Of a stretch of DNA of 34,581 bases, positions 1,351 through 17,502 are shown in pieces. The position numbers and the translations under genes were made by a program. The DNA comes from Paracoccaceae bacterium (lineage in GTDB: Bacteria; Pseudomonadota; Alphaproteobacteria; Rhodobacterales; Rhodobacteraceae), in assembly GCA_007692585.1 (NCBI GenBank), contig REBU01000038.1, positions 1-34,581 of the forward strand, given 5' to 3'. Each line of letters opens with the position of its first letter. Position 1 is the first letter of the stretch. A model generated the notes under the pieces. The model saw only the letters and a program-made list of their open reading frames with translations, had not been told where the DNA came from and made no database searches.

Positions 1351-2175
1351 TCAAGACTTTACGTAATGGGTAGCGCCAGCGAGTTTAAACCCACTAGCCG
1401 CTTCTCCATCAAGTCGTTCAGAATGCCCAATAAACAGACTCCCTCCGCGATTGAGCCGCTCACCCAGCCGACCCCATAAGCGTTTACGCCCTTCTGAGTC
1501 AAAATAAATAACCACATTTCGACAAAAAATAATATCGAATCGCCCCGAGAAGGGCCAGTCACCATGCAAATTAAGCGTCGCAAACCTCACAATACTCTTA
1601 ACAGAATCGCTGATGCATACCGTCCTGTTAGAGCCCCTCGCAAAAAAGCTGCAAAACTCTCTGGGAATCTGCCTCTCCGCATCTTGATCAAAAACTCCAG
1701 CCTGAGCCTTAGCGACAACTAACGGGTCAATGTCAGTTCCAAGTATTAGAAAATCCATCTTTGCAACTTCACGCTCAAGATTAAATACGGATAAGGCAAT
1801 TGAATAGACTTCTTCGCCTGTAGAGCATGCACAGGACCATACTCGTACACGCTCCCCCCTCCTTGCCGCCTCGAGAAGTGGCGGGAGAACTTTAGACCTG
1901 AGCGCTTCGAAATGATGTACTTCTCGAAAAAAGGCTGTTACATTTGTAGTAATGGATGAAATAATTTCTTGGCGCTCAGATTCACCGCCTGGTTGGCGGA
2001 GAAAAGAGCAGTATTCATCGTAACTCGATAAACCCAGGTGACGTAATCTTCTGTTAAGCCGAGCAGTTAACAATCCACGTTTCGCTTCCGTGATAACAAT
2101 GCCCGAGTTCTTATGAACGATTTCAGAAAGAAAAGAAAATTGCTGATCCGTTAGAAAGACATCACTTACGACCAT
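1351..2175 (-). CDS. cheR: Chemotaxis protein methyltransferase CheR
   Basis: CheR uses S-adenosylmethionine to methylate glutamates of chemoreceptors. The protein has 274 residues from the chosen start, typical of the family. The N-terminal helical domain is followed by TTNVTAFFRE, which matches the TTNLTxFFRE signature. The SAM-binding loop is WSCACSTGEEVYS, then CRNVVIYFD, then FIGHSERL near the end. An ATG further upstream (2253) would extend the protein into cheW. The ATG at 2175 is preferred because GGAAAG lies eight bases before it and it starts four bases after the cheW stop. No C-terminal TPR or receptor-tethering extension is present. Codon use is AT-richer than in the right half of the window. 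Confidence 0.95.
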   Translation of the reverse strand: MVVSDVFLTDQQFSFLSEIVHKNSGIVITEAKRGLLTARLNRRLRHLGLSSYDEYCSFLRQPGGESERQEIISSITTNVTAFFREVHHFEALRSKVLPPLLEAARRGERVRVWSCACSTGEEVYSIALSVFNLEREVAKMDFLILGTDIDPLVVAKAQAGVFDQDAERQIPREFCSFFARGSNRTVCISDSVKSIVRFATLNLHGDWPFSGRFDIIFCRNVVIYFDSEGRKRLWGRLGERLNRGGSLFIGHSERLDGEAASGFKLAGATHYVKS

Positions 2176-2179
2176 GCTT

Positions 2180-2662
2180 TCAACTTTCCAAGATTTTTGA
2201 CTCAGGCAAAAGCTGAGAAAGATCGATTTTTCTGAGGATGCTACCATCATCAAATGTTATCATGCCAACAATAAACTCCCGCGAAGGATCTGAAGCAATT
2301 TCCGGGACCGACTGTATTCGGCTATGATCGATAGTCATAATATCCGAAACCAAATCCGCCAACAAACCCACAATACGTCCCTCATGCAATGCAATAATGA
2401 CAACATGTCTCTGAGAAATTTCGGACGGCCCAAATCCGAGACGGGCGGAGAGATCTATCACCGTTACGACAGAGCCCCTGAGATTTATCACGCCTTTCAC
2501 ATAACTTGGGGCATGTGGAAGCAAGGTAGTTGGAGACCATCCTCGGATTTCACGGACGAGATTTATGTCTATGCAAAAGTCTTGCCCTGCAAGCCTGAAT
2601 GCCACCACATCATTCTTACCTAGCGCAGTTTCAGATACCGTGTCTAACATGATTTCATCCAT
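2180..2662 (-). CDS. cheW: Chemotaxis adaptor CheW
   Basis: CheW is a scaffold that links receptors to the kinase CheA. The single CheW domain is recognisable from VVAFRLAGQDFCIDI, then a VREIRGW segment, then VKGVINLRGSVVTVIDL, the classic CheW core, and a C-terminal ILRKIDLSQLL. The protein has 160 residues from the ATG at 2662, which overlaps the cheA stop by 8 bp. A second ATG at 2650 starts just after the cheA stop and is also possible, while an upstream TTG at 2671 is less likely. The tight overlap suggests coupled production with CheA, with which it forms signalling arrays at the membrane. Confidence 0.95.
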   Translation of the reverse strand: MDEIMLDTVSETALGKNDVVAFRLAGQDFCIDINLVREIRGWSPTTLLPHAPSYVKGVINLRGSVVTVIDLSARLGFGPSEISQRHVVIIALHEGRIVGLLADLVSDIMTIDHSRIQSVPEIASDPSREFIVGMITFDDGSILRKIDLSQLLPESKILES

Positions 2663-4781
2663 AAGCCGCAATTTTCAGATTATTACGAGCGTGTTCCATT
2701 CCACTCGCAAAGATTATTTCCTCCGGATCGATGATGAGTGCTATATTTCCATCACCCAGTATCGTTGCAGCTGAGACACCGGGAATTTTGCCGTAATTTT
2801 CTTCTAAGCTTTTAATGACCACCTGCCGCTGATCGAATATCGCGTCCACAAAGAGCGCTGCGCGACGATGGCTGTCGTTTTCTATTACTATCAGAACGCC
2901 ATCTTCAAGAGGTGCGGGTTCATCGCGAATGCCAAACGTGCAAGCTATATCCACAATCGGAATCAGCTCTCCCCTATTAAGCAGAAGCTTTCCAGTTTTT
3001 CCCACATAGTGAAGGCAAGAACTAGAGGGTCTCAAAGTTTCCTGGACTGCGGTAATTGGCAAGACCATCGACTGATCTCCCAATTGGATCAACATGCCTT
3101 CCAGTACCGCTAGCGTAAGCGGAAGGGTGATAGAGAATTTTGTTCCTTTGTTTTCCGTCGACTGGATCATTACTCTTCCGCCGAGTGACATGATTTCTCT
3201 GCGAACGACATCCAGACCGACACCTCGGCCTGAAAGTGCGGAAACCTGTTCTTTGGACGAGAAGCCAGGTAAGAAAAGCAGGGAATCAATTTCGCTCGAT
3301 GACAGCTGTGTACCCGGCGCAATCAAACCTCGATCTTCGGCGATTTTTCTTACTCGCTCTCGGTCGATACCTCCGCCGTCGTCAGAAACTTCTATTAGCA
3401 CGCGGCCTGATCTATGTGCAGCGGAGAGCGTAATCGTCCCTTCTAGTGCTTTACCCCTTCTTTGACGTGTTACGGCATCCTCCAAACCATGATCTACCGA
3501 ATTTCGAATCATGTGAGTCAGAGGATCAATCAGGCGCTCAATCATCGTCTTATCGACTTCAGTATTTTCGCCTATTGTATCGAGACGGACCTTCTTTCCG
3601 GTTGCATCTGCCGCCTCACGCACGATCCTATGCATCCGTTGAAATACGAGCTTAAGTGGTTGAGCGCGAATTGACATAACGCTTTCTTGAATATCTCCGG
3701 CAAGTTGACGTATTCCATCAAGCGCCGAGACAACGTCAGGCTGATTGGTCAGACCTGCCGTCTCAATTACCTGATAAAGCATTGCTTCTTTGATTACTAG
3801 TTCGCCGATCATGTTCATAAGTTTATCGACGCGCTCAAGGCTTACCCGAATACTTGCCGCCGCATTGGCATTACCTCCAGGTCCATTGCTGGTTTTTGCC
3901 GCTTTCTCTGATTTGTTTTCGTCTAGTTCGACGCTTTTATGTTCTTCGGCATTTTGAGGATTGTTGGCCAGCTCTTTTTGTTCTTGAGATCCCACCGTCG
4001 CTACAGGGTTTTTCTCAAAAAAATCATTTTGTATCGGCTGCTCAAAGCTACTGATTTCAATCGCAGCGCAATCCGCGACGAACTCAAATATCTCGTTTAC
4101 CTTTCCAACTGGCTCATCGGTGATGAGGGTTACCTTCCAAGACAGGTAAGTTTCTTCAGCCCTCCAGTCTCGAAGCAGTGGAACAAGTGCATGATCGATC
4201 GTTACTTCCGTTTCACCCAATTGTTGCAAGGAAAACAGCAAAGCTACAGGATCATTTCCACTTCGATAAAGTTCGGCATCAGGTGAGAAGATGATCTGAA
4301 ACGTGTTCAAAGGAGTCCCACCGTCCAGCGGTGTTAGATCAAGGGTTAAAGGGACAAATTCAATACCTTCATCCTCGTCTTCAGTCGAGACATCCTCATG
4401 GCCGATGATATCATCCAACTCGTTCAGAAGTTCTTTTAGTCGGGCTTGATCGGCACATTCTGACTGTCGCGCCGCCGTCACCAAATCAGAGAGGAAATCC
4501 GAGGACCGGTGTAGTGTCACCATTACGGATTGTGTAGCGTCCAGCTTTTCGGATCTCAATTCGTCCAGAACGGTTTCAAACCGATGAGCGAAGGTCACAA
4601 GATCTGACAGCCCGAAAGCAGCAGCTGCTCCTTTCATTGAGTGGACAGCACGAAAAACGGAATGGACAGTTTCTACGTCGCCCGTAGCCGAGTCCATCGC
4701 ACGTAAACCCGTAGAGAGGGCTTCAAGTAGTTCGTCACATTCGACGAAAAACATCTCGAGAAATTCGTCCATATCCGACAT
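2655..4781 (-). CDS. cheA: Chemotaxis histidine kinase CheA
   Basis: CheA autophosphorylates on its Hpt domain and passes phosphate to CheY. The protein has 708 residues. The Hpt domain covers about 1-125, with phospho-histidine H47 in VHSMKG. A variable middle domain spans about 150-245, followed by a charged linker. The dimerisation domain starts near 308 (SIRVSLERVDKLMNMIGELV). The ATPase domain shows an N box HMIRNSVDHG (423-432), a G1 box DDGGGID (467-473), an F box around 503-512 and a G2 box GRGVGLDV (518-525). A CheW-like regulatory domain fills 555-708. The start at 4781 has GGAAGG nine bases upstream and lies 5 bp after the cheY stop. All catalytic boxes are intact. The region is AT-richer than the window average. 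Confidence 0.97.
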   Translation of the reverse strand: MSDMDEFLEMFFVECDELLEALSTGLRAMDSATGDVETVHSVFRAVHSMKGAAAAFGLSDLVTFAHRFETVLDELRSEKLDATQSVMVTLHRSSDFLSDLVTAARQSECADQARLKELLNELDDIIGHEDVSTEDEDEGIEFVPLTLDLTPLDGGTPLNTFQIIFSPDAELYRSGNDPVALLFSLQQLGETEVTIDHALVPLLRDWRAEETYLSWKVTLITDEPVGKVNEIFEFVADCAAIEISSFEQPIQNDFFEKNPVATVGSQEQKELANNPQNAEEHKSVELDENKSEKAAKTSNGPGGNANAAASIRVSLERVDKLMNMIGELVIKEAMLYQVIETAGLTNQPDVVSALDGIRQLAGDIQESVMSIRAQPLKLVFQRMHRIVREAADATGKKVRLDTIGENTEVDKTMIERLIDPLTHMIRNSVDHGLEDAVTRQRRGKALEGTITLSAAHRSGRVLIEVSDDGGGIDRERVRKIAEDRGLIAPGTQLSSSEIDSLLFLPGFSSKEQVSALSGRGVGLDVVRREIMSLGGRVMIQSTENKGTKFSITLPLTLAVLEGMLIQLGDQSMVLPITAVQETLRPSSSCLHYVGKTGKLLLNRGELIPIVDIACTFGIRDEPAPLEDGVLIVIENDSHRRAALFVDAIFDQRQVVIKSLEENYGKIPGVSAATILGDGNIALIIDPEEIIFASGMEHARNNLKIAAYG

Positions 4782-4786
4782 ATGCG

Positions 4787-5155
4787 TTACCTTCCCAGAA
4801 CCCGGTTGATGACCGAAACGAAGTGCTTGTCTTCAAATGGCTTCACGATCCATCCGGTCGCCCCAGCATTGCGCGCACGCGCTTTTAGCTCAGGGCTACT
4901 CTCCGTCGTCAGCACAAGGATTGGTACGCTGGAATACTCGCCTGTTGCGCGAACAGCTTCGATCAGACCAAACCCGTCCATCCGTGGCATGTTGATGTCG
5001 GTAATGATAAGAGCCGGATCAGCGTCAGATAAACTACCGACGCCTTCGACACCGTCACCTGCAAGATACACTTCGAATCCCGCCCGCCGCAATACACTCG
5101 ACACAAGCCCTCGGATCGTAGGAGAATCATCGACAGCCAAGATCCGAGCGGTCAT
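4787..5155 (-). CDS. cheY: Chemotaxis response regulator CheY (second copy)
   Basis: A stand-alone receiver of 122 residues. Key residues are D9-D10, phospho-acceptor D53 in TDINMPRMDG, switch T83 in LTTESS and K105 in VKPF. It resembles the CheY usually found immediately upstream of cheA in alphaproteobacterial operons. Its ATG overlaps the stop of the STAS gene by 4 bp (ATGA at 5152-5155), and cheA follows 5 bp after its stop, so the three genes are probably translated together. It differs considerably from the other CheY of the operon, so the two are unlikely to be recent duplicates. Confidence 0.94.
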   Translation of the reverse strand: MTARILAVDDSPTIRGLVSSVLRRAGFEVYLAGDGVEGVGSLSDADPALIITDINMPRMDGFGLIEAVRATGEYSSVPILVLTTESSPELKARARNAGATGWIVKPFEDKHFVSVINRVLGR

Positions 5156-5427
5156 GACTGCACCTCTACCTGAAACTGCGTGGTACTCAGTCCCAGAGTG
5201 GCAATCGCTTTTTCGGCATTTGCGGACCAGTCGCAGACCTCGAATGCGACACCGTCAGACTGCCATTGCCGTTGCGCGGCAAGCAGCATCTCGACGCCAA
5301 TCGTTCCCAGTCGCGTGATGGCAGAGGCATCAAGCTTGATCGGCTTGCCAATTTCCTCGATCAGGAGTGTCGCAACCTTCTGCGCCGCGCGCTGATCGAG
5401 AATCTCCGGAAGCTGTATGTCTGGCAT
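5152..5427 (-). CDS. STAS-domain protein of the chemotaxis operon
   Basis: A 91-residue protein consisting only of a STAS fold, the domain of anti-sigma-factor antagonists such as SpoIIAA. The core DASAITRLGTIGVEMLL (33-49) matches the conserved strand-helix motif. At the position of the SpoIIAA phospho-serine it appears to carry T42. The ATG at 5427 is chosen over the upstream one at 5463 because AGGAG lies five bases before it. As first gene of the leftward operon and overlapping cheY by 4 bp, it probably acts with the Che proteins. No partner anti-sigma kinase is visible in the window. Small STAS proteins occur in other che operons, but their biochemical role is not something I can state. 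Confidence 0.85.
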   Translation of the reverse strand: MPDIQLPEILDQRAAQKVATLLIEEIGKPIKLDASAITRLGTIGVEMLLAAQRQWQSDGVAFEVCDWSANAEKAIATLGLSTTQFQVEVQS

Positions 5428-5632
5428 CTCATCTCCTCTACGTGGCGGGCCGTCAAGTTTCATATCGCAAGGCTTTTCGGGTCAAATCTTCGGCTTCATG
5501 ACTCGGTGATACTGATCTGAAATTAAGAAAGAGTTTCTGGGCGGCAGAAACTTTGTCCCGCGCGCGATCAGAGAGATAGGGAATTTTAAGCAATTGTTCC
5601 TAGGGTGCTCGGATCATTTCAGGGAGCTTGCG
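5428..5632. promoter_or_regulatory. Divergent promoter region between the two che transcription units
   Basis: These 205 bp separate the leftward STAS-cheY-cheA operon from the rightward cheB-cheD pair, so both promoters should lie here. The clearest element is a perfect hairpin at 5532-5552, AGTTTCTG-GGCGG-CAGAAACT. It could be an operator for both units. I found no convincing sigma-54, FliA-type or sigma-70 promoter that I would defend. Confidence 0.55.
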
Positions 5633-6640
5633 ATGTTTGATCCTCAAATTCTTGTCGTCGATCCGAATCTTGTTCGCAGAAGGAAAGTGATCGAAGCATG
5701 CGCCGAGGCAACGACAGCCCCCGCACTCTTTGCCACAACGCTGGATGACGCGTATCAGCTTGCCGAAGTGCATAGACCCTCAAGGATTGCCATCACTGCG
5801 GAATTCACCCGCACCGGCGAATTTCAGGCCTTGCTCGACCTGATCCATTACATTGGAGCCGATGTCATTGTTTACGGCACTGATGAGGAATGCGCAGACC
5901 GAACCGTGCATCAGATCAACGATCCGCGCGGAATGCACAGCCTGGTAAGCGCTCTGACATCCGGCCTTGGCCTCTCTCGCGCACCGCAAAAGCAGGCAAG
6001 GCAGATGGAAGCGCCCTCCCAGGTCCAGGTGCGGCCCGCGATGCAGGGGATCTTGCTCATCGGAGCTTCGACCGGCGGTGTCACTGCGCTTGAAACAATC
6101 GTGGGCCAACTCCCTCATGACTGCCCACCGGTGCTGATCGTCCAGCATATGCGCCCCGGCTTTGGAGACGGGCTGATTCGCCGGTTGGATTCCATCGGAA
6201 AACCGCGTGTCAGGGCGGCCAGCGATCGGGTTTTGCTGGAAAATGGCACAGTCCATGTCGCGGCCGGGAACGGACGTCACCTCGGGGTGGTCCAACGCGG
6301 GGGTCTGATGACGCAGCTGCTGGATGACGCGAATGTATCGGGTCATTGCCCTTCGGTTGATGTCCTGTTTGAACACGGCGCGCGGCTCGCCGGGAAAGTG
6401 CCCGTGGCTGCAGCGCTGCTGACCGGAATGGGCGCAGATGGTGCAGAAGGCATGTGCCGACTGCGCGAGGCTGGTGCGTATACAATCGCACAAGATCGGG
6501 ACAGCTCGGTCGTGTGGGGCATGCCACGGGTGGCCGCTGAAATGGGTGGGGTGGACGATGTGCTGCCGATCGACAGGATCGCCGATGCGCTGTTGCACGG
6601 ACCGGCGCGCTGCAGAAAATCCACGTATCAGGTGCGATGA
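5633..6640 (+). CDS. cheB: Chemotaxis methylesterase CheB with degenerate receiver domain
   Basis: CheB removes methyl groups from (and deamidates) chemoreceptors. The C-terminal esterase domain (about 137-325) is complete: S146 in GASTGG, H172 in VQHMRPGFG and D269 in LLTGMGADGAEGM, the Ser-His-Asp triad. The N-terminal 1-115 has a receiver-like layout but lacks its chemistry. The acidic pair is reduced to VVDPN (D10), and the strand that should end in the phospho-acceptor reads RIAITAEFTRT with no aspartate. It should thus not be switched on by phosphate from CheA. The ATG at 5633 is preferred over 5594 because AGGGAG precedes it. The total of 335 residues is normal for CheB. cheD overlaps its stop. 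Confidence 0.93.
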   Translation: MFDPQILVVDPNLVRRRKVIEACAEATTAPALFATTLDDAYQLAEVHRPSRIAITAEFTRTGEFQALLDLIHYIGADVIVYGTDEECADRTVHQINDPRGMHSLVSALTSGLGLSRAPQKQARQMEAPSQVQVRPAMQGILLIGASTGGVTALETIVGQLPHDCPPVLIVQHMRPGFGDGLIRRLDSIGKPRVRAASDRVLLENGTVHVAAGNGRHLGVVQRGGLMTQLLDDANVSGHCPSVDVLFEHGARLAGKVPVAAALLTGMGADGAEGMCRLREAGAYTIAQDRDSSVVWGMPRVAAEMGGVDDVLPIDRIADALLHGPARCRKSTYQVR

Positions 6641-7158
6641 CAATGGTTTACCGAAACAAGACCGTTCACGTGGTTCAGGGCGAGCACCATGTCTCAGATG
6701 ACCCCGAAGTCGTGATCACGACAGTTCTAGGCTCTTGTGTGGCGGCCTGCATTTATGACCCGGTCTGCAGGATCGGCGGGATGAATCATTTTCTGCTGCC
6801 CTTGGCCAAACAGGACAAGAGCGACATCCGCTATGCCGCTGCGGCAATCGAGACATTGGTAAATTCGCTGCTGCGCAACGGCGCAAGACGTGAGCGGCTG
6901 GAAGCCAAACTTTTTGGCGGCGCGCGCATGATCCCATCGCTGCCCGATATCGGCCGCCAGAATGCCGAAGCCGCAAAACGCATTCTTCAGGATGACGGAA
7001 TTCGCATCGTCAGCGGCGATCTCTGTGGTGCCGAAGCGCGCAGGATCAGGTTCTGGCCCACGAGCGGGCGCGTGCAGATGCAGCTTCTGGGCGACGAAGC
7101 GCCACCTCCAGTGGAAACCCCGCGTCGCCCGGCCACCGGGGATATAGAACTCTTCTGA
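6637..7158 (+). CDS. cheD: Chemoreceptor glutamine deamidase CheD
   Basis: CheD deamidates glutamines of chemoreceptors and in some species interacts with a CheC-type phosphatase. The protein has 173 residues. The catalytic cysteine is C34 in TTVLGSCVAACIYD and the histidine is H51 in GGMNHFLLP. The conserved KLFGGARM stretch follows near residue 90. The start codon overlaps the cheB stop in an ATGA at 6637-6640, so translation is coupled to CheB. Both enzymes modify the same receptors. No CheC gene is seen in the window. Confidence 0.95.
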   Translation: MTMVYRNKTVHVVQGEHHVSDDPEVVITTVLGSCVAACIYDPVCRIGGMNHFLLPLAKQDKSDIRYAAAAIETLVNSLLRNGARRERLEAKLFGGARMIPSLPDIGRQNAEAAKRILQDDGIRIVSGDLCGAEARRIRFWPTSGRVQMQLLGDEAPPPVETPRRPATGDIELF

Positions 7159-10522: not shown

Positions 10523-13500
10523 CTATTCAGCGGCGATCCGGGCCGGGCCTGCGTGAAAGGCGGCCAGCAACTCGGCGCGGCGCGCGGCGGCGTTTTCAGC
10601 ATTGCGATGCTTGACCGGGCCGAAACCGCGAATGGTCAGCGGCAATTCGGCAAGCTCCACGGCAATCGCGTGGTTTTCCGGGCTCAGCCCGGTCAGGATC
10701 TGCGCGATCAGCGCTTCATAGTCGCGGATCAACTGGCGCTCCATCCGCCGCTCGGCCGTGTAGCCGAACGGATCGAGCGGCGTGCCGCGCAGGATTTTCA
10801 GCGCGGCCAGAGGCTTGAAGGCGCGCAGGATCCATGGCCCGAAGCTGCGCTTCACCGGGCGGCCATCGGGCCCCATAGGCGACAGAAGCGGTGGCGCGAG
10901 GTGGAAGCGCGGGGTGAAATCGCCGTCAAATTCCGCACGCGCCTTTCCAACCGTCTGCAGATGCAGGCGCGCGACCTCATATTCGTCCTTGTAGCTCAGA
11001 AGCTTGTGATAGCCGCGCGCAATCGCGTCGCGCATCTGCGCATCGGGGGCCTGATCGACCAGCTTGCGGTAGCGCCGCGCCAGACGTTTGGACTGGTATT
11101 GCGTCAGATGCTCCTCGCGCAGCGCGATTTTCTCGTCCAGTGACAGGGGCTTTCGCGCCACCTTGTCGTCGAGCATCTTTGCTGCGGCCTTGGGGTGGAC
11201 CACCGACCAGCGCCCAAATGCGAAGGCGCGCGTGTTGCCCGCAACCGCCGCGCCATTCAACTCGATCGCGCGCAGGATCGCGGCCTCGGAAAGTGGCACC
11301 AGCCCCATCTGCCAGGCCGCGCCCAGCGCCATCATGTTGGAAAAGATGCTGTCGCCCAGAAGCCGCCGCGCCAGATCGGAATAATCGAAAAGCTGCACCC
11401 GCGCGCCGAGCCGGGCTTGCAGCGCAAGTTTCAGATCCTCGGTCGGGATGCGGAATTCGGTGTTGCGGGTGAATTCGCCGGTGATGATCTCATGGCTGTT
11501 GACCGCAGCGCCCGTCTGGCCCGCGCGCATCAGCCCCATGGTCTTGGCGCCCGCCGTCACGACCAGATCGCCGCCGATGACGCAATGCGCCTCGCCAACG
11601 GCGACACGGATAGCCGAGATATCCTCGGGGCGTTCGGCCAGACGGCAATGGATATGCACCGCGCCGCCCTTCTGCGCGAGCCCCGCCATCTCGATCAGCC
11701 CCGCGCCCTTGCCGTCAAGCTGCGCCGCCTGCGCCAGGATCGCGCCCACCGTCACGACGCCTGTGCCGCCGACGCCCGTGATGACGATGTTATGCGTGCC
11801 GTTGATCGCAGGCAGATCGGGCGCAGGCAGCTCCGGCAAATCGACCGAAGCGGTCGCGGCTTTCTTCACCTGCGCGCCCTCCAGCGTCACGAAAGACGGG
11901 CAAAACCCCTTCAGGCAAGAGAAATCCTTGTTGCAGGACGACTGATCAATCGCACGCTTGCGGCCCAGCTCCGTCTCGACCGGCACGATGGAGACGCAAT
12001 TGGATTGCACCCCGCAATCCCCGCAGCCCTCGCAGACATCGGTATTGATGAACACGCGCTGGTCGGGGTCGGGGAAGTGCCCGCGCTTGCGTCGACGGCG
12101 CTTTTCGGCAGCACAAGTCTGCACATAGATGATCGCCGACACGCCCTGATAGGCCGCGCACTCCCTCTGCACCCCCTCCAGCCCGGCGCGGGGATGCCAG
12201 CCCACCACGCGCGGGAAATCGGCGCGGGTGGGCTCTTCCTTCTCGTCGAAGACAACCTCGATCTTGCCCACCCCCATCGCGACCAGCTCATGGGCGATCT
12301 GCGCAGGGCTCAGGCCCCCTTCATTCTTCTGCCCGCCGGTCATGGCGACAGCATCGTTGAACAAGATCTTGTAGGTGATATGCGTGCCCGCCGCGAGTGC
12401 CGCGCGGATCGCCTGCACCCCGGAATGGTTATATGTCCCGTCGCCGAGGTTCTGGAACACATGGGGCCGCGTGGAAAAAGGCGCCTCGCCGATCCAATTC
12501 GCGCCCTCGCCGCCCATCTGCGTGAAGCCCGTCGTCGCGCGGTCCATCCATTGCACCATGTAGTGACAGCCGATGCCCGCATAGGCGCGATGCCCCTCGG
12601 GCACTTTTGTCGAACTGTTATGCGGGCAGCCCGAACAGTAATAAGGCAGCCGCGCCGCCAGATCCTGCGCATTATCCGCCCGGCGCGCATCCGCCAGCAT
12701 CGCCAGCCCCGCCTTCACGCGATCCGTGGCGCGCCCCTCCTCGATCAGGATCGCGCCCAGTTTCTCCGCGATCATGATCGGATCGAGCGCGTAGCGGGTC
12801 GGAAACAACTCGACCTGCCGCCCGTTTTCCCAGGTATCGCCCTTGTGCCAACCATAGACGCGGCGGCCCCGGCGATCGTCGAAAATCGCCTCCTTGACCT
12901 GCACCTCGATCAGCTTGCGCTTTTCCTCGACCACAACGATCAGATCGAGCCCCTCGGCCCAGTCATGAAATCCGCGCATGTCCAGCGGAAAACTCTGGCC
13001 GATTTTGTAGGTCGTGATCCCCAGCCGCTCGGCGCCCGCGGCATCGATCCCCAGCAAGCCCAGCGCATGCACCAGATCGAGCCAGTTCTTGCCCGCGGCC
13101 ACCAGCCCGATCTTCGCCCCCGGTTTGCCCCAGACGCGCCGATCCAGCCCGTTTGCATGCGAAAACGCCTCTGCGGCGAAACGCTTGTAATCGATCATCC
13201 GGGCTTCCTGCGCCACAGGCGTGTCACCCAGCCGGATATTCAGCCCCCCCTCGGGCATCTTGAAATCGGGGGCCGCGAACTGCATCCGATGCGGGTTGCC
13301 ATCAACAATCGCTGTGGCCTCGACTGTCTCCTTGACTGTTTTCAGTCCCACCCAGACGCCCGCGAAACGCGACAGCGCATAGCCGTAATGGCCGAAATCG
13401 AGCACTTCCTGCACGCCCGCGGGCGACAGGACCGGGATATAGGCATCGACCATCGCCCAGTCCGACTGGTGCAGCACGGTCGAGGATTCGCCCGTATGGT

Positions 13501-13936
13501 CATCCCCCATCGCCACCAGAACGCCCCCATTGCGCGACGTGCCGGCCATATTCGCATGACGAAACACATCGCCTGTGCGGTCCACCCCCGGCCCCTTGCC
13601 ATACCAGAGCCCGAACACCCCGTCGAAACGGCCCTCGCCGCGCAGTTCCGCCTGCTGGCTGCCCCAGAGCGCCGTCGCGGCCAGATCTTCGTTCAGCCCT
13701 TCCTGAAACCGGATCTCCGCCGCCTCCAGAAGCGCGCGCGCCCGCCCCATCTGCAAATCGACCGCCCCCAGGGGCGAGCCACGATAGCCTGTCACATACC
13801 CTGCGGTTTTCAGCCCCGCCACCCGGTCGCGAGCGGCCTGCGCCAGCATCAGCCGCACCAGGGCCTGTGTGCCATTGAGCAACACTGGCGATTTCTGAAG
13901 ATCGAATCGGTCCGAAAGCGTGATATCCTGACGCAT
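10523..13936 (-). CDS. Fused indolepyruvate:ferredoxin oxidoreductase
   Basis: This enzyme oxidatively decarboxylates aryl-pyruvates such as indolepyruvate to the acyl-CoA and passes electrons to ferredoxin. It has 1137 residues from the chosen start and fuses the IorA-like and IorB-like subunits. The N-terminal part holds the pyruvate-binding domain. A thiamine diphosphate domain carries GDGTYNHSG (498-506) and FNDAVAMTGGQ. Iron-sulfur cysteines lie in CEGCGDCGVQSNC (635-647) and again at C668, C674 and C679. The C-terminal gamma-type domain starts at GVGGTGVVTVG (721-731). The ATG at 13936 is fixed by GGGAGG seven bases upstream. An earlier ATG at 14077 would cover the shared promoter with the LysR gene. 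No frameshift is seen. Confidence 0.95.
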   Translation of the reverse strand: MRQDITLSDRFDLQKSPVLLNGTQALVRLMLAQAARDRVAGLKTAGYVTGYRGSPLGAVDLQMGRARALLEAAEIRFQEGLNEDLAATALWGSQQAELRGEGRFDGVFGLWYGKGPGVDRTGDVFRHANMAGTSRNGGVLVAMGDDHTGESSTVLHQSDWAMVDAYIPVLSPAGVQEVLDFGHYGYALSRFAGVWVGLKTVKETVEATAIVDGNPHRMQFAAPDFKMPEGGLNIRLGDTPVAQEARMIDYKRFAAEAFSHANGLDRRVWGKPGAKIGLVAAGKNWLDLVHALGLLGIDAAGAERLGITTYKIGQSFPLDMRGFHDWAEGLDLIVVVEEKRKLIEVQVKEAIFDDRRGRRVYGWHKGDTWENGRQVELFPTRYALDPIMIAEKLGAILIEEGRATDRVKAGLAMLADARRADNAQDLAARLPYYCSGCPHNSSTKVPEGHRAYAGIGCHYMVQWMDRATTGFTQMGGEGANWIGEAPFSTRPHVFQNLGDGTYNHSGVQAIRAALAAGTHITYKILFNDAVAMTGGQKNEGGLSPAQIAHELVAMGVGKIEVVFDEKEEPTRADFPRVVGWHPRAGLEGVQRECAAYQGVSAIIYVQTCAAEKRRRRKRGHFPDPDQRVFINTDVCEGCGDCGVQSNCVSIVPVETELGRKRAIDQSSCNKDFSCLKGFCPSFVTLEGAQVKKAATASVDLPELPAPDLPAINGTHNIVITGVGGTGVVTVGAILAQAAQLDGKGAGLIEMAGLAQKGGAVHIHCRLAERPEDISAIRVAVGEAHCVIGGDLVVTAGAKTMGLMRAGQTGAAVNSHEIITGEFTRNTEFRIPTEDLKLALQARLGARVQLFDYSDLARRLLGDSIFSNMMALGAAWQMGLVPLSEAAILRAIELNGAAVAGNTRAFAFGRWSVVHPKAAAKMLDDKVARKPLSLDEKIALREEHLTQYQSKRLARRYRKLVDQAPDAQMRDAIARGYHKLLSYKDEYEVARLHLQTVGKARAEFDGDFTPRFHLAPPLLSPMGPDGRPVKRSFGPWILRAFKPLAALKILRGTPLDPFGYTAERRMERQLIRDYEALIAQILTGLSPENHAIAVELAELPLTIRGFGPVKHRNAENAAARRAELLAAFHAGPARIAAE

Positions 13937-13976
13937 CCTTGCACCTCCCGTCGCAATGTTGCGTAAGGTTTGATCA

Positions 13977-14096: not shown

Positions 14097-14990
14097 ATGG
14101 ATTGGGACAAGCTCAGAATCTTTCACGCGGTCGCCGATGCGGGCAGTCTCACCCATGCCGGGGACACACTGAAACTGTCGCAATCCGCCGTCAGCCGCCA
14201 GATCCGCGCGCTCGAGGAATCGCTCGATGCGATTCTGTTCCACCGCCATGCGCGCGGCCTGATTCTGACCGAACAGGGCGAAGTGCTGTTCGCTGCTACC
14301 CGCGACATGAGCCGCACGCTTGAATCTGCCTCCGCGCGCATCCGCGACACTGAGGACGAGGTTTATGGCGAATTGCGCGTCACTTCGACCACAGGCTTCG
14401 GCACGCTGTTTCTTGCCCCCCGCCTGCCTGCACTTTATACACAATATCCCGACATCAAGATCGACCTGATGCTTGAGGAGCGCGTGCTCGATCTGCCAAT
14501 GCGCGAAGCCGATGTGGCGATTCGCATGAAAGAACCCTCGCAGGCCGATCTGATCCGCAAAAGATTGATGACCGTAACGATGCGGCTCTATGCCTCCGAG
14601 GAGTATCTGCGCGCCAATGGCAGGCCCGAAACGATTGAAGATCTTGCCGATTTCCGGCTGATCTCGCAAAACATCGCCTCCGCGCAAGTCAGTGTGGGCG
14701 CGCAGCTGATCCGCGAACTGACCGCCCGCCCCTTGCGGTCAAGCTTCACTGTGAACAACTATTTCGGCGTGCTGCAGGCCGTTATCAATGATCTGGGGAT
14801 CGGAGTGCTTCCCGATTACGTTTCCGAAGATTTCCCCGAGCTGGTCCATGTCCTGCCAGAGGTCGCCAGTGGCGATATCCCGGTTTTCCTCGCCTATCCC
14901 GAAGAATTGCGCCATTCCCGCCGCATTGCCGCGTTTCGTGATTTCGTCGTCGAAGAGATCGTCGCCTATCGCCGCGCACGCCAGAGCTGA
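14097..14990 (+). CDS. LysR-family regulator, LsrB/VtlR-like
   Basis: A LysR-type regulator of 298 residues. The N-terminal winged helix-turn-helix (about 4-62) reads MDWDKLRIFHAVADAGSLTH and then SQSAVSRQIRALE. This opening closely matches my memory of rhizobial LsrB and Brucella VtlR. The substrate-binding domain fills the rest. The ATG at 14097 is chosen because it begins the conserved MDWDKLR block; an in-frame ATG at 14010 adds 29 residues without family match. The gene diverges from ior across 160 bp. A predicted small RNA lies about 125 bp downstream, as AbcR RNAs do next to lsrB/vtlR in Rhizobiales. The LysR family is certain; the LsrB/VtlR subgroup is likely. Confidence 0.9.
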   Translation: MDWDKLRIFHAVADAGSLTHAGDTLKLSQSAVSRQIRALEESLDAILFHRHARGLILTEQGEVLFAATRDMSRTLESASARIRDTEDEVYGELRVTSTTGFGTLFLAPRLPALYTQYPDIKIDLMLEERVLDLPMREADVAIRMKEPSQADLIRKRLMTVTMRLYASEEYLRANGRPETIEDLADFRLISQNIASAQVSVGAQLIRELTARPLRSSFTVNNYFGVLQAVINDLGIGVLPDYVSEDFPELVHVLPEVASGDIPVFLAYPEELRHSRRIAAFRDFVVEEIVAYRRARQS

Positions 14991-15082
14991 GCACTGCCCC
15001 GCGCGCTAAGGCTCTGTAACTTTAGCATGAGGCAAGTTTGCAACGCAGGGCTGTATTCTGCAGCAGCGTCAAAACATTTAAC

Positions 15083-15110
15083 TTGCGTAATGTGCATGCG
15101 GCTCCATATT
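15083..15110 (+). promoter_or_regulatory. Predicted sigma-70 promoter of the small RNA
   Basis: TTGCGT (15083-15088) and CATATT (15105-15110) are separated by 16 bp. Read as CTTGCG and CATATT the spacing is 17 bp, close to the alphaproteobacterial consensus. The expected start falls near 15117, right at the base of the first hairpin. A GCAA-GT-TTGC palindrome lies upstream at 15032-15041 and could bind an activator. Confidence 0.5.
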
Positions 15111-15116
15111 AGGATC

Positions 15117-15189
15117 AGGGCCGACGCTGAGGCATCGGTCCTAACCTCCCTGTTGGACTTTGGCCGAGCTCTGCGCTCGGCCTTTTTTT
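15117..15189 (+). ncRNA. Predicted trans-acting small RNA with anti-Shine-Dalgarno linker, possibly AbcR-like
   Basis: The stretch of about 73 nt forms two hairpins. The first pairs 15117-15124 with 15135-15142 (eight pairs including one G-U). The second is a strong terminator with an eight-pair stem and seven Ts. The linker between them (15143-15161) is predicted to be single-stranded and contains CCTCCC (15145-15150), which can pair with ribosome binding sites. A promoter-like sequence lies just upstream and no open frame covers the stretch. Its place after an LsrB/VtlR-like LysR gene parallels the AbcR RNAs of Rhizobiales, which repress transporter mRNAs through CUCCC-type motifs. The RNA is predicted from structure only, and the AbcR link is inference. 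Confidence 0.6.
15162..15189 (+). terminator. Strong rho-independent terminator
   Basis: GGCCGAGC and GCTCGGCC form a perfect eight-pair stem around the loop TCTGC, followed by seven Ts. It ends the predicted small RNA and any read-through from the LysR gene, and insulates purL. Confidence 0.93.
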
Positions 15190-15336: not shown

Positions 15337-17502
15337 ATGACTGATCCCGCCCTGACTGATGACCTGATCGCCGCGCATGGGCTGAAACCGGATGAATATG
15401 CGCGCATCCTTGAGATCATCGGGCGCGCGCCCACCTATACCGAACTCGGCATCTTCTCGGCCATGTGGAACGAGCATTGTTCCTATAAATCCTCGAAGAA
15501 ATGGCTGCGCACCTTGCCGACCAGTGGCCCGCAGGTCATTTGCGGCCCCGGCGAGAATGCGGGCGTCGTCGATATCGGCGACGGGCAGGCGGTGATCTTC
15601 AAGATGGAGAGCCACAACCACCCCAGCTATATCGAGCCCTATCAGGGGGCTGCGACCGGCGTCGGCGGTATCCTGCGCGACGTGTTCACTATGGGCGCGC
15701 GGCCGATTGCGGCGATGAACGCGCTCAGCTTCGGCGCGCCCACGCATCCCAAGACCCCGCATCTTGTACGCGGTGTGGTCGAAGGCATCGGCGGCTATGG
15801 CAACGCTTTCGGCGTGCCGACTGTGGGCGGCGAAGTCCGCTTCCATTCGGCCTATAACGGCAATTGTCTTGTGAATGCCTTTGCCGCCGGGCTGGCCGAT
15901 GCGGACAAGATCTTCTATTCTGCAGCCAGCGGCGTCGGCATGCCGGTCGTCTATCTGGGCGCCAAGACAGGCCGCGACGGGGTTGGCGGGGCCACCATGG
16001 CCAGCGCCGAGTTTGACGACACGATCGAGGAAAAGCGCCCCACAGTGCAGGTCGGTGACCCCTTCACCGAAAAGCGCCTGCTGGAAGCCTGTCTGGAGCT
16101 GATGGCCTCGGGCGCGGTGATCTCGATTCAGGACATGGGCGCCGCCGGGCTGACCTGTTCGGCTGTGGAAATGGGCGACAAGGGCGGCTTGGGCGTCAAG
16201 CTGCAGCTCGATCATGTGCCCCAGCGCGAAGCCGAGATGACCGCATACGAGATGATGCTCTCGGAAAGTCAGGAACGCATGCTGATGGTCCTCAAGCCCT
16301 CGATGGAGGCCGAAGCCCGCGCGATTTTCGACAAATGGGATCTCGATTTCGCCATTGTCGGCGAAACCATCGCCGAGGACCGTTTCCTGATCCTGCATGG
16401 CAATGAGGTCATGGCCGATCTGCCGCTGTCAAAACTCTCCTCCAGCGCGCCGGAATATGACCGCCCATGGGTGGAAACACCTGCCCCCGCGCCCCTGACG
16501 GACATCCCCGAAATCGCGCCCATCGACGCCCTGCGCGCCCTGATCGCAAGCCCCAGCTATGCCCACAAGGCCTGGGTCTGGGAACAATACGACACGCAGG
16601 TGATGGCCGATACTGTGCGTACACCCGGCCTCGGCGCGGGCATCATCCGCGTGCATGGCACGGACAAGGCGCTCGCTTTCACCTCTGATGTGACCCCGCG
16701 CTATGTCCGCGCCAACCCGTTTGAAGGTGGCAAACAGGCGGTAGCCGAAGCCTATCGTAACCTGACGGCCGTGGGCGCGCGGCCCCTCGCCTCGACCGAC
16801 AACCTGAATTTCGGCAATCCCGAAAAGCCCGAGATCATGGGCCAGCTTGTCGGCGCGATCAAGGGCATCGGCGCGGCCTGCGAAGCCCTCGACATGCCGA
16901 TCGTGTCGGGCAATGTCTCGCTCTATAATGAGACCGACGGGCGCGCGATCCTGCCCACCCCGACCATCGGCGCGGTCGGGCTGATCGACCATCTCGACCA
17001 GATCATAGGCGGGCGGCCCGACGCGGGCGATCTTGCGCTGATGCTGGGCGAGACGCAGGGCCATCTGGGCCAGTCCGCGCTTCTGGCCGAAGCCTTCGGA
17101 ATCGAAGCGGGCGACGCGCCTGCGGTCGATCTGGATGCCGAACGGCGCAATGGCGAATTCCTGCGCGACAACCGCGCCTGGGTGAAGGCCGCGACGGATC
17201 TTTCTGATGGCGGGCTTGCGCTCGCCGCTTTCGAGATGGCCGAGGCCGCAGGTCTGGGCGTCAGTCTCGACGCGCGCGACATCGCGACGCTCTTTGGCGA
17301 AGATCAGGCGCGCTACCTGCTGGCCTGCAGCTTCGATCAGGCCGAAGCGCTCATGGTCGCCGCAGGTCAGGCCGGGGTGACGCTCGCCGTGGTGGGCCGT
17401 TTCGGCGGCGAAGACATTGCACTGGGCGGCGAAAGCGCACCGCTTGCCGATCTCTCGACGCTCTATCGCACAAGCTTCGCGCACGCGATCGGCGACGCTT
17501 GA
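15337..17502 (+). CDS. purL: Phosphoribosylformylglycinamidine synthase subunit PurL
   Basis: PurL is the ATP-using subunit that, with PurQ and PurS, converts FGAR to FGAM in purine synthesis. The protein has 721 residues, the size of the small PurL type. Recognisable segments are [10 protein letters not shown] (45-54), ESHNHPS (91-97) followed by [14 protein letters not shown], and an AIM-like internal duplication with [10 protein letters not shown] in the first half and [10 protein letters not shown] in the second. AAGG lies upstream of the ATG. The 147 bp between the small-RNA terminator and the start hold no clear promoter or riboswitch. bolA follows 53 bp downstream. Confidence 0.97.

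Follow-up and report, generated by a model that had tools for sequence, protein, structure and literature searches.

A SorY small RNA beside an LsrB-type regulator gene in a Paracoccaceae bacterium and its relation to the AbcR RNAs

The small RNA encoded between a LysR-type regulator gene and purL in a Paracoccaceae bacterium is the syntenic orthologue of SorY, i.e. an RNA of a kind known in a photosynthetic relative (R. sphaeroides) and not an undescribed one. We consider it quite probable that this element is a SorY RNA at whose promoter the adjacent LsrB-type regulator and a stress sigma factor act, and whose CCUCCC stretch covers the ribosome-binding sites of transporter mRNAs. A preliminary description of the locus, made from the sequence alone, had implied an undescribed RNA equivalent to AbcR; synteny with R. 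sphaeroides replaces that RNA by the known SorY. Hereafter, the window is the whole analysed stretch of DNA (34,581 nucleotides, contig REBU01000038.1).

Organization of the locus and structure of the RNA

The features of the locus are compiled in Table 1. The name Ior for the divergent gene upstream of the regulator is our own reading of its Pfam POR and DUF6537 domains. Elsewhere in the window, a chemotaxis cluster is present at 1351-7158, in which CheA and CheB are recognized by Pfam and CheW-, CheR- and CheD-like products from translations only.

Table 1. Features of the regulator and small RNA locus in window coordinates
Feature	Position	Strand	Basis or remark
Gene upstream of lysR in divergent orientation, indolepyruvate ferredoxin oxidoreductase-like	10523-13966	-	Pfam POR, DUF6537; synteny
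LysR-type regulator, LsrB/VtlR orthologue by mutual best match, 297 aa, no cysteine	14097-14990	+	Pfam HTH_1 and LysR_substrate
Small RNA unit (box, promoter, hairpin, CCTCCC, T7 terminator)	15045-15189	+	Intergenic, lysR / purL
Predicted LsrB-type box GCAGGGCTGTATT	15045-15057	+	One mismatch to published consensus GCAT-N3-TG-N3-T
Predicted -35 element CTTGCG	15082-15087	+	TTG invariant in 33 aligned loci
Predicted -10 element CATATT, 17 nt spacer	15105-15110	+	Alignment with CCTAAAT of R. sphaeroides
SorY orthologue, ~73 nt	15117-15189	+	Start placed by alignment; SorY/SorX models, synteny
5' hairpin	15118-15141	+	Fold; pairing in 25 relatives
CCUCCC, presumed anti-Shine-Dalgarno pairing site	15145-15150	+	In 33/33 loci
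Conserved 15-nt linker CCTCCCTGTTGGACT	15145-15159	+	33/33 Rhodobacteraceae loci
Intrinsic terminator with T7	15162-15189	+	Helix 98.5% paired in 25 sequences
purL	15337-17502	+	Pfam AIRS domains; also downstream neighbour at the R. sphaeroides sorY locus

A promoter-like pair, a 5' hairpin, a CCTCCC stretch and a seven-T terminator had been noticed earlier between the LysR gene and purL, and all of them are present. For the segment 15118-15189 the folding energy is -32.7 kcal/mol (z -3.72), which none of 200 shuffles matches, while the span initially proposed (15083-15189) folds more weakly (z -2.48, 2 of 200 shuffles as good). The CCTCCC stretch had been called exposed; it is mostly open, with a mean unpaired probability of 0.66 over 33 loci, but not fully so because of a 2-bp CC/GG mini-stem, and the probability exceeds 0.8 in only three of the 33 loci. 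Conservation downstream of the regulator, which had been proposed as a check, is evident in the Rhodobacteraceae: the linker occurs in all 33 loci, and the 5' hairpin covaries in 25 of these sequences. The covariation score is 0.206 against 0.131 in shuffles (0/500), and slid versions do not exceed 0.132, a comparison to be read with the caveat that related sequences can outscore shuffles without structure. In the 25 relatives, 78% of cells of this hairpin are paired and six of the eight pairs have changed on both sides.

The terminator stem (15162-15182, 8 pairs) precedes the T7 tract. One terminator is found in the scanned region against 1.3 expected by chance, so alone it is not beyond chance; terminators after genes are ordinary. 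The element might on these grounds be read as a mere lysR terminator with no RNA function, a reading that we find barely credible given the 15-nt linker in every Rhodobacteraceae locus, the covarying 5' hairpin, the conserved promoter-like pair and the established R. sphaeroides orthologue. Beyond chance for the window RNA are its Rfam SorX score (see below), the conservation of the linker and the covariation.

Identity of the RNA

The SorX model of Rfam (RF02784) scores 52.8 bits at the window RNA (E 2.9e-10 for the window), above its gathering score of 46.6; no other Rfam family passes its cut-off there. The SorY model (RF02651) gives 45.6 bits (E 3.7e-8) and does not reach its gathering score of 111. 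That cut-off marks near-identity, since only one of 149 genomes of the family passes it (G051, at G051:C4:1632645). The 5' ends published for R. sphaeroides are 1,632,642 for SorY and 2,598,224 for SorX (PMC6238624), and the SorX model matches 2,598,225 on the same contig as the SorY match of G051. Because the coordinates of both matches fit the published 5' ends, we take G051 to be R. sphaeroides.

The gene order at the sorY locus of G051 is that of the window, i.e. Ior reversed, LysR (72.7% identical), RNA and PurL (89.5%), and its sorY-adjacent LysR gene (G051:C4:1631580-1632467) is the lsrB orthologue. Both RNAs also have the hairpin-linker-terminator plan and the linker CCUCCCUGUUGGACUU. 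They differ in the sequence of the 5' hairpin and, as the SorY score indicates, in their distance from the gathering threshold; in addition, the function of SorY is published for R. sphaeroides, whereas here it is a predicted one. A second RNA in the window genome (G000:C39:100990-101064) matches the SorX model at 36.7 bits, below the cut-off, and is flanked by genes for a response regulator and an exonuclease-family protein, which is the SorX arrangement in G051; SorX of R. sphaeroides adjoins ompR-1, on its downstream side. Because the locus orders match, the window RNA is assigned to SorY and the second RNA is the likely SorX. The Rfam SorX match at the window is a paralogue cross-hit.

If the window RNA were instead SorX, it would be 3'UTR-derived and cut from the lysR mRNA by RNase E. 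It shares with SorX the linker and terminator plan, and SorX is the sole Rfam family whose cut-off it passes. However, SorX of R. sphaeroides is processed from the 3'UTR of ompR-1, and the window genome has its own ompR-linked SorX-like RNA in that place (L002, the sub-threshold match described above), while the neighbour of the window RNA is a LysR gene. The locus in the window corresponds to that of SorY, and a conserved promoter-like pair lies directly upstream of the RNA. We therefore reject SorX identity, which appears very unlikely.

The adjacent regulator

That the LysR protein is of the LsrB/VtlR type had been proposed earlier and is borne out by mutual best match. Its best PDB sequence match is 9hh1 (232 bits; next 98), labelled only as a LysR-family regulator; we identify this entry with LsrB of A. 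tumefaciens, given its 99% identity to the lsrB locus in a record from A. tumefaciens and the description of an LsrB structure in PMC11975290. The best match of the window LysR is the lsrB gene in 7/7 Rhizobiales genomes (228-248 bits versus at most 167 for the next), and A. tumefaciens LsrB in turn finds the window LysR as the best match in the window genome (232 versus 120 bits). Judged in this way, the window LysR is an LsrB/VtlR orthologue.

The regulator is present in 143 of the 149 Rhodobacteraceae genomes (E<=1e-90), and 168 of 289 class genomes contain matches at E<=1e-60. The gene trxB, a known lsrB neighbour, lies beside 75 of 85 loci outside the Rhodobacteraceae and beside none of the examined Rhodobacteraceae loci, only 5 of 33 of which span at least 1000 nt upstream. 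In a tree with paralogues, the long outgroup branch joins next to the Rhodobacteraceae (support 91/69), and the root is not resolved. Two records titled Arenimonas sp. (L194) and Bacillus subtilis (L238) carry Rhizobiales-type lsrB genes (93% and 69% identical to LsrB, respectively) and are probably mislabelled or contaminated. LsrB has been stated to be unique to the Rhizobiales (PMC11975290); the mutual best match in the Rhodobacteraceae speaks against this, as do the matches across the family and the class. Conservation of VtlR/LsrB and AbcR in many Alphaproteobacteria has already been stated (PMC7486931, PMC8844928, PMC5461406) and is not new.

In A. tumefaciens LsrB, replacement of C273 alone raised H2O2 sensitivity, replacement of C144 alone did not, and joint C144/C273 replacements behaved like a deletion (PMC11975290). 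Cysteines 144 and 273 are both present in all 80 Rhizobiales-type lsrB loci and in 0/33 Rhodobacteraceae, and the window LysR has no cysteine at all; among other loci of the class, C144 is found in 7/85 and C273 in 1/85. Judging from these residues, any sensing by the Rhodobacterales regulator would not operate through cysteines 144 and 273. Because hardly any loci beyond the Rhizobiales have the redox cysteines, thiol oxidation was probably not the ancestral input.

Regulator and RNA pairs across the class

In at least 121 of the 143 Rhodobacteraceae genomes that encode the regulator, its gene is followed on the same strand, at a distance of 72-256 nt, by a SorY match; 22 have no SorY match behind the gene among the matches listed. 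In alphaproteobacterial loci outside the Rhodobacteraceae, CCTCCCT followed by a terminator occurs within 500 nt downstream in 48 of 85 cases. The same combination is found zero times on the reverse strand, in 20 shuffle rounds and in the 500 nt upstream, the last being a mild control because it is largely coding sequence. These counts uphold the earlier proposal that the regulator and the RNA are paired outside the Rhizobiales.

The common form of these RNAs is ACGU-CUCCCAG-ACGU-GAAG-CCUCCCUGUU-nnACU-terminator. A model of 48 such RNAs (hereafter R1) includes no Rhodobacteraceae and, judged by the adjoining LTTRs, no Rhizobiaceae; with four base pairs it is nearly a sequence profile and hence no test of structure. 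With R1, SorX of R. sphaeroides scores 40.8 bits and the window RNA 30.4 bits; all 20 other Rhodobacteraceae loci tried (of 32) also match, and within the window genome the window RNA is its best match (E 8.5e-7; next 1.7e-4). The link of SorY to a class-wide RNA family behind LsrB orthologues is solid.

The ad hoc criterion of terminator plus motif failed in 37 of 92 non-Rhodobacteraceae loci (e.g. L045, L046, L114 and L132), and Rfam searches up to E 0.1 found nothing in seven of nine loci scanned (L114, L132, L072, L045, L093, L098 and L131), although one of these, L072, contains a candidate RNA under the ad hoc criterion. Two further arrangements were observed. Three tandem RNAs of the family lie behind one LsrB orthologue at L055:2592-3188, recalling the tandem abcR1/abcR2. 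In the window genome, an RNA-like sequence at G000:C26:5248-5346 (L258 near 1501-1600) combines two CCTCCCTG motifs with a terminator-like hairpin carrying a run of Ts, and scores 23.3 bits with R1.

Relation to AbcR and MmgR

The covariance model of AbcR (ar15, RF02345, gathering score 40), which the preliminary description had named as a check, gives no match in the window: ar15 is unlisted there up to E 10 in a search that kept only the best member of each clan, and there is no match in the window genome at E<=0.001. Membership in ar15 was rejected on the lack of a listed match. The ar15 scan of the class found 0/289 genomes, and its controls gave no match either, so absence is not provable from it. 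A search of 385 class genomes with A. tumefaciens LsrB gave no match of more than 55% identity, for which reason the class samples seem to hold no Rhizobiaceae.

AbcR carries the M1 motif CUCCCA in the loop of its first hairpin (PMC5461406); M1 is missing here, as the hairpin at 15118-15141 contains no CUCCC. Among 14 Rhizobiales loci tried with R1 (of 80), four gave marginal matches (E 0.017-1.6) and ten gave none up to E 10. Since three matches elsewhere reach E 0.14-2.1, the four are near noise. In L231 and L233, two of these four that were also scanned with Rfam, the R1 matches lie inside the ar15 match. In sequence, homology between SorY and AbcR is at noise level.

The SorY family is linked to AbcR by position, promoter box, anti-Shine-Dalgarno stretch and the Rfam clan that contains ar15 and suhB (CL00108), with no significant sequence match. 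Like AbcR1/AbcR2, the window RNA lies behind lsrB/vtlR, has an anti-Shine-Dalgarno sequence and has a predicted LsrB-type box, with one mismatch, upstream, and both AbcR and SorY have been published as Hfq-bound regulators of transporter mRNAs. Unlike them, it has no ar15 match, no M1 CUCCCA hairpin and no second hairpin before the terminator, and its box is one helical turn further from the -35 element. With MmgR (suhB, RF00519, of the same clan), it shares CCUCCCU...GACUU before the terminator and a weak match of 21.1 bits (gathering score 41), but RF00519 gives no match at E<=1e-4 in the window genome. A suhB/mmgR match at or over the cut-off is present in 134 of the 289 genomes of the class (e.g. 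G289, G421 and G206), and the few listed strong places that were compared by eye with LTTR places are not at the LsrB gene.

Of the earlier claim of an AbcR/LsrB-equivalent pair outside the Rhizobiales, the regulator and the place stand, while the ar15 match and the M1 hairpin are lacking. The window RNA could be a true AbcR, a direct descendant of the rhizobial family, as its place behind an LsrB orthologue, its anti-Shine-Dalgarno stretch, the LsrB-type box, the class-wide intermediates and the marginal R1 matches (two of them inside ar15 matches) might indicate. We regard this as unlikely: an ar15 match is listed neither in the window nor in the class genomes (where controls were silent too), most of the Rhizobiales loci tried lack an R1 match, the marginal matches are near noise, and the RNA has a different linker and no M1 hairpin. 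We lean somewhat towards a reading in which the LsrB-type regulator and its RNA form an old Alphaproteobacteria-wide module, and in which SorY (Rhodobacterales) and AbcR (Rhizobiales) diverged from a single ancestral RNA that was activated by LsrB, bound by Hfq and repressed transporters; the redox switch through the cysteines of rhizobial LsrB would have been added later and the original signal would be something else.

Promoter and LsrB-type box

A strict scan with an E. coli-type consensus found no promoter in the region. Nevertheless, CTTG occurs 50-78 nt before CCTCCC in 31 of 33 Rhodobacteraceae loci, and the TTG of the -35 element is invariant across their alignment. The LsrB box published for PabcR1 is GCAT-N3-TG-N3-T at -61 to -49 (PMC8844928). 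Of 33 intergenic regions from Rhodobacteraceae, 22 contain its relaxed form GCAT-N3-[TG]G-N3-T (mean 1.5 and maximum 4 in 100 shuffles; 5 on the reverse strand) and the other 11, the window among them, lack it; the exact published form is found in only 4/33 (shuffle mean 0.8). When GCAG, as in the window, is allowed, 21/33 Rhodobacteraceae loci have the box 36-38 nt ahead of TTG and 1/33 has it at 25-27 nt. By contrast, the box of Rhizobiales-type lsrB loci lies 26 nt before TTG in 54/80 and 37 nt before it in 0/80, i.e. relative to rhizobial loci, the Rhodobacteraceae box is displaced upstream by one helical turn.

Across the class, the relaxed box is present in 23 of 57 loci with the CCTCCCT RNA core (shuffle mean 2.2, maximum 7) versus 4 of 28 loci without it (shuffle mean 1.4, maximum 5), and the 57 loci have no common box-to-TTG spacing. 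Ahead of the regulator's own gene, the box is found in 1/33 loci and not in the other 32.

Proposed mechanism and implications

According to published work, SorY of R. sphaeroides is induced by stress and bound by Hfq; it acts on the mRNA of the transporter gene takP and restricts the import of malate. From these properties and the conserved locus, a mechanism can be proposed: (i) the LsrB-type regulator probably binds the predicted GCAT-N3-KG-N3-T type box at about -70; (ii) it would work with a stress sigma factor at the sorY promoter; (iii) the Hfq-bound RNA would cover the ribosome-binding sites of transporter mRNAs with its single-stranded CCUCCC, takP being a published target in R. sphaeroides whose pairing site is our prediction; and (iv) uptake would be lowered under oxidative stress. 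The earlier suggestion that the RNA may repress transporter mRNAs gains from the anti-Shine-Dalgarno CCUCCC and from the action of the orthologue on takP, while targets in the present species are predicted ones.

The sequence data point to SorY as probably being under the control of the adjacent LsrB-type regulator. Alternatively, adjacency to the LTTR gene may be passive, with SorY transcribed through RpoH only and the box serving another regulator. SorY of R. sphaeroides is published as RpoHI/RpoHII-dependent, and the available part of that account does not mention a role of LsrB; in S. meliloti, LsrB is required for AbcR1 and RpoH1 for AbcR2 (PMC8844928). Passive adjacency nevertheless seems doubtful to us, as the pair persists in the large majority of regulator-bearing Rhodobacteraceae genomes and the box, similar to the LsrB consensus in the literature, is spaced in phase with the helix.

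Among the papers listed in searches of the openly accessible literature, we found none that joins SorY or SorX to AbcR, LsrB or VtlR; the available parts of the nearest ones (PMC9670543 and PMC3927594) do not make this connection. The pairing ties SorY and SorX, known from photo-oxidative stress, and AbcR, known from nutrient uptake, symbiosis and virulence, to one regulator lineage, and it predicts a candidate activator of SorY in R. sphaeroides, a tractable laboratory organism.
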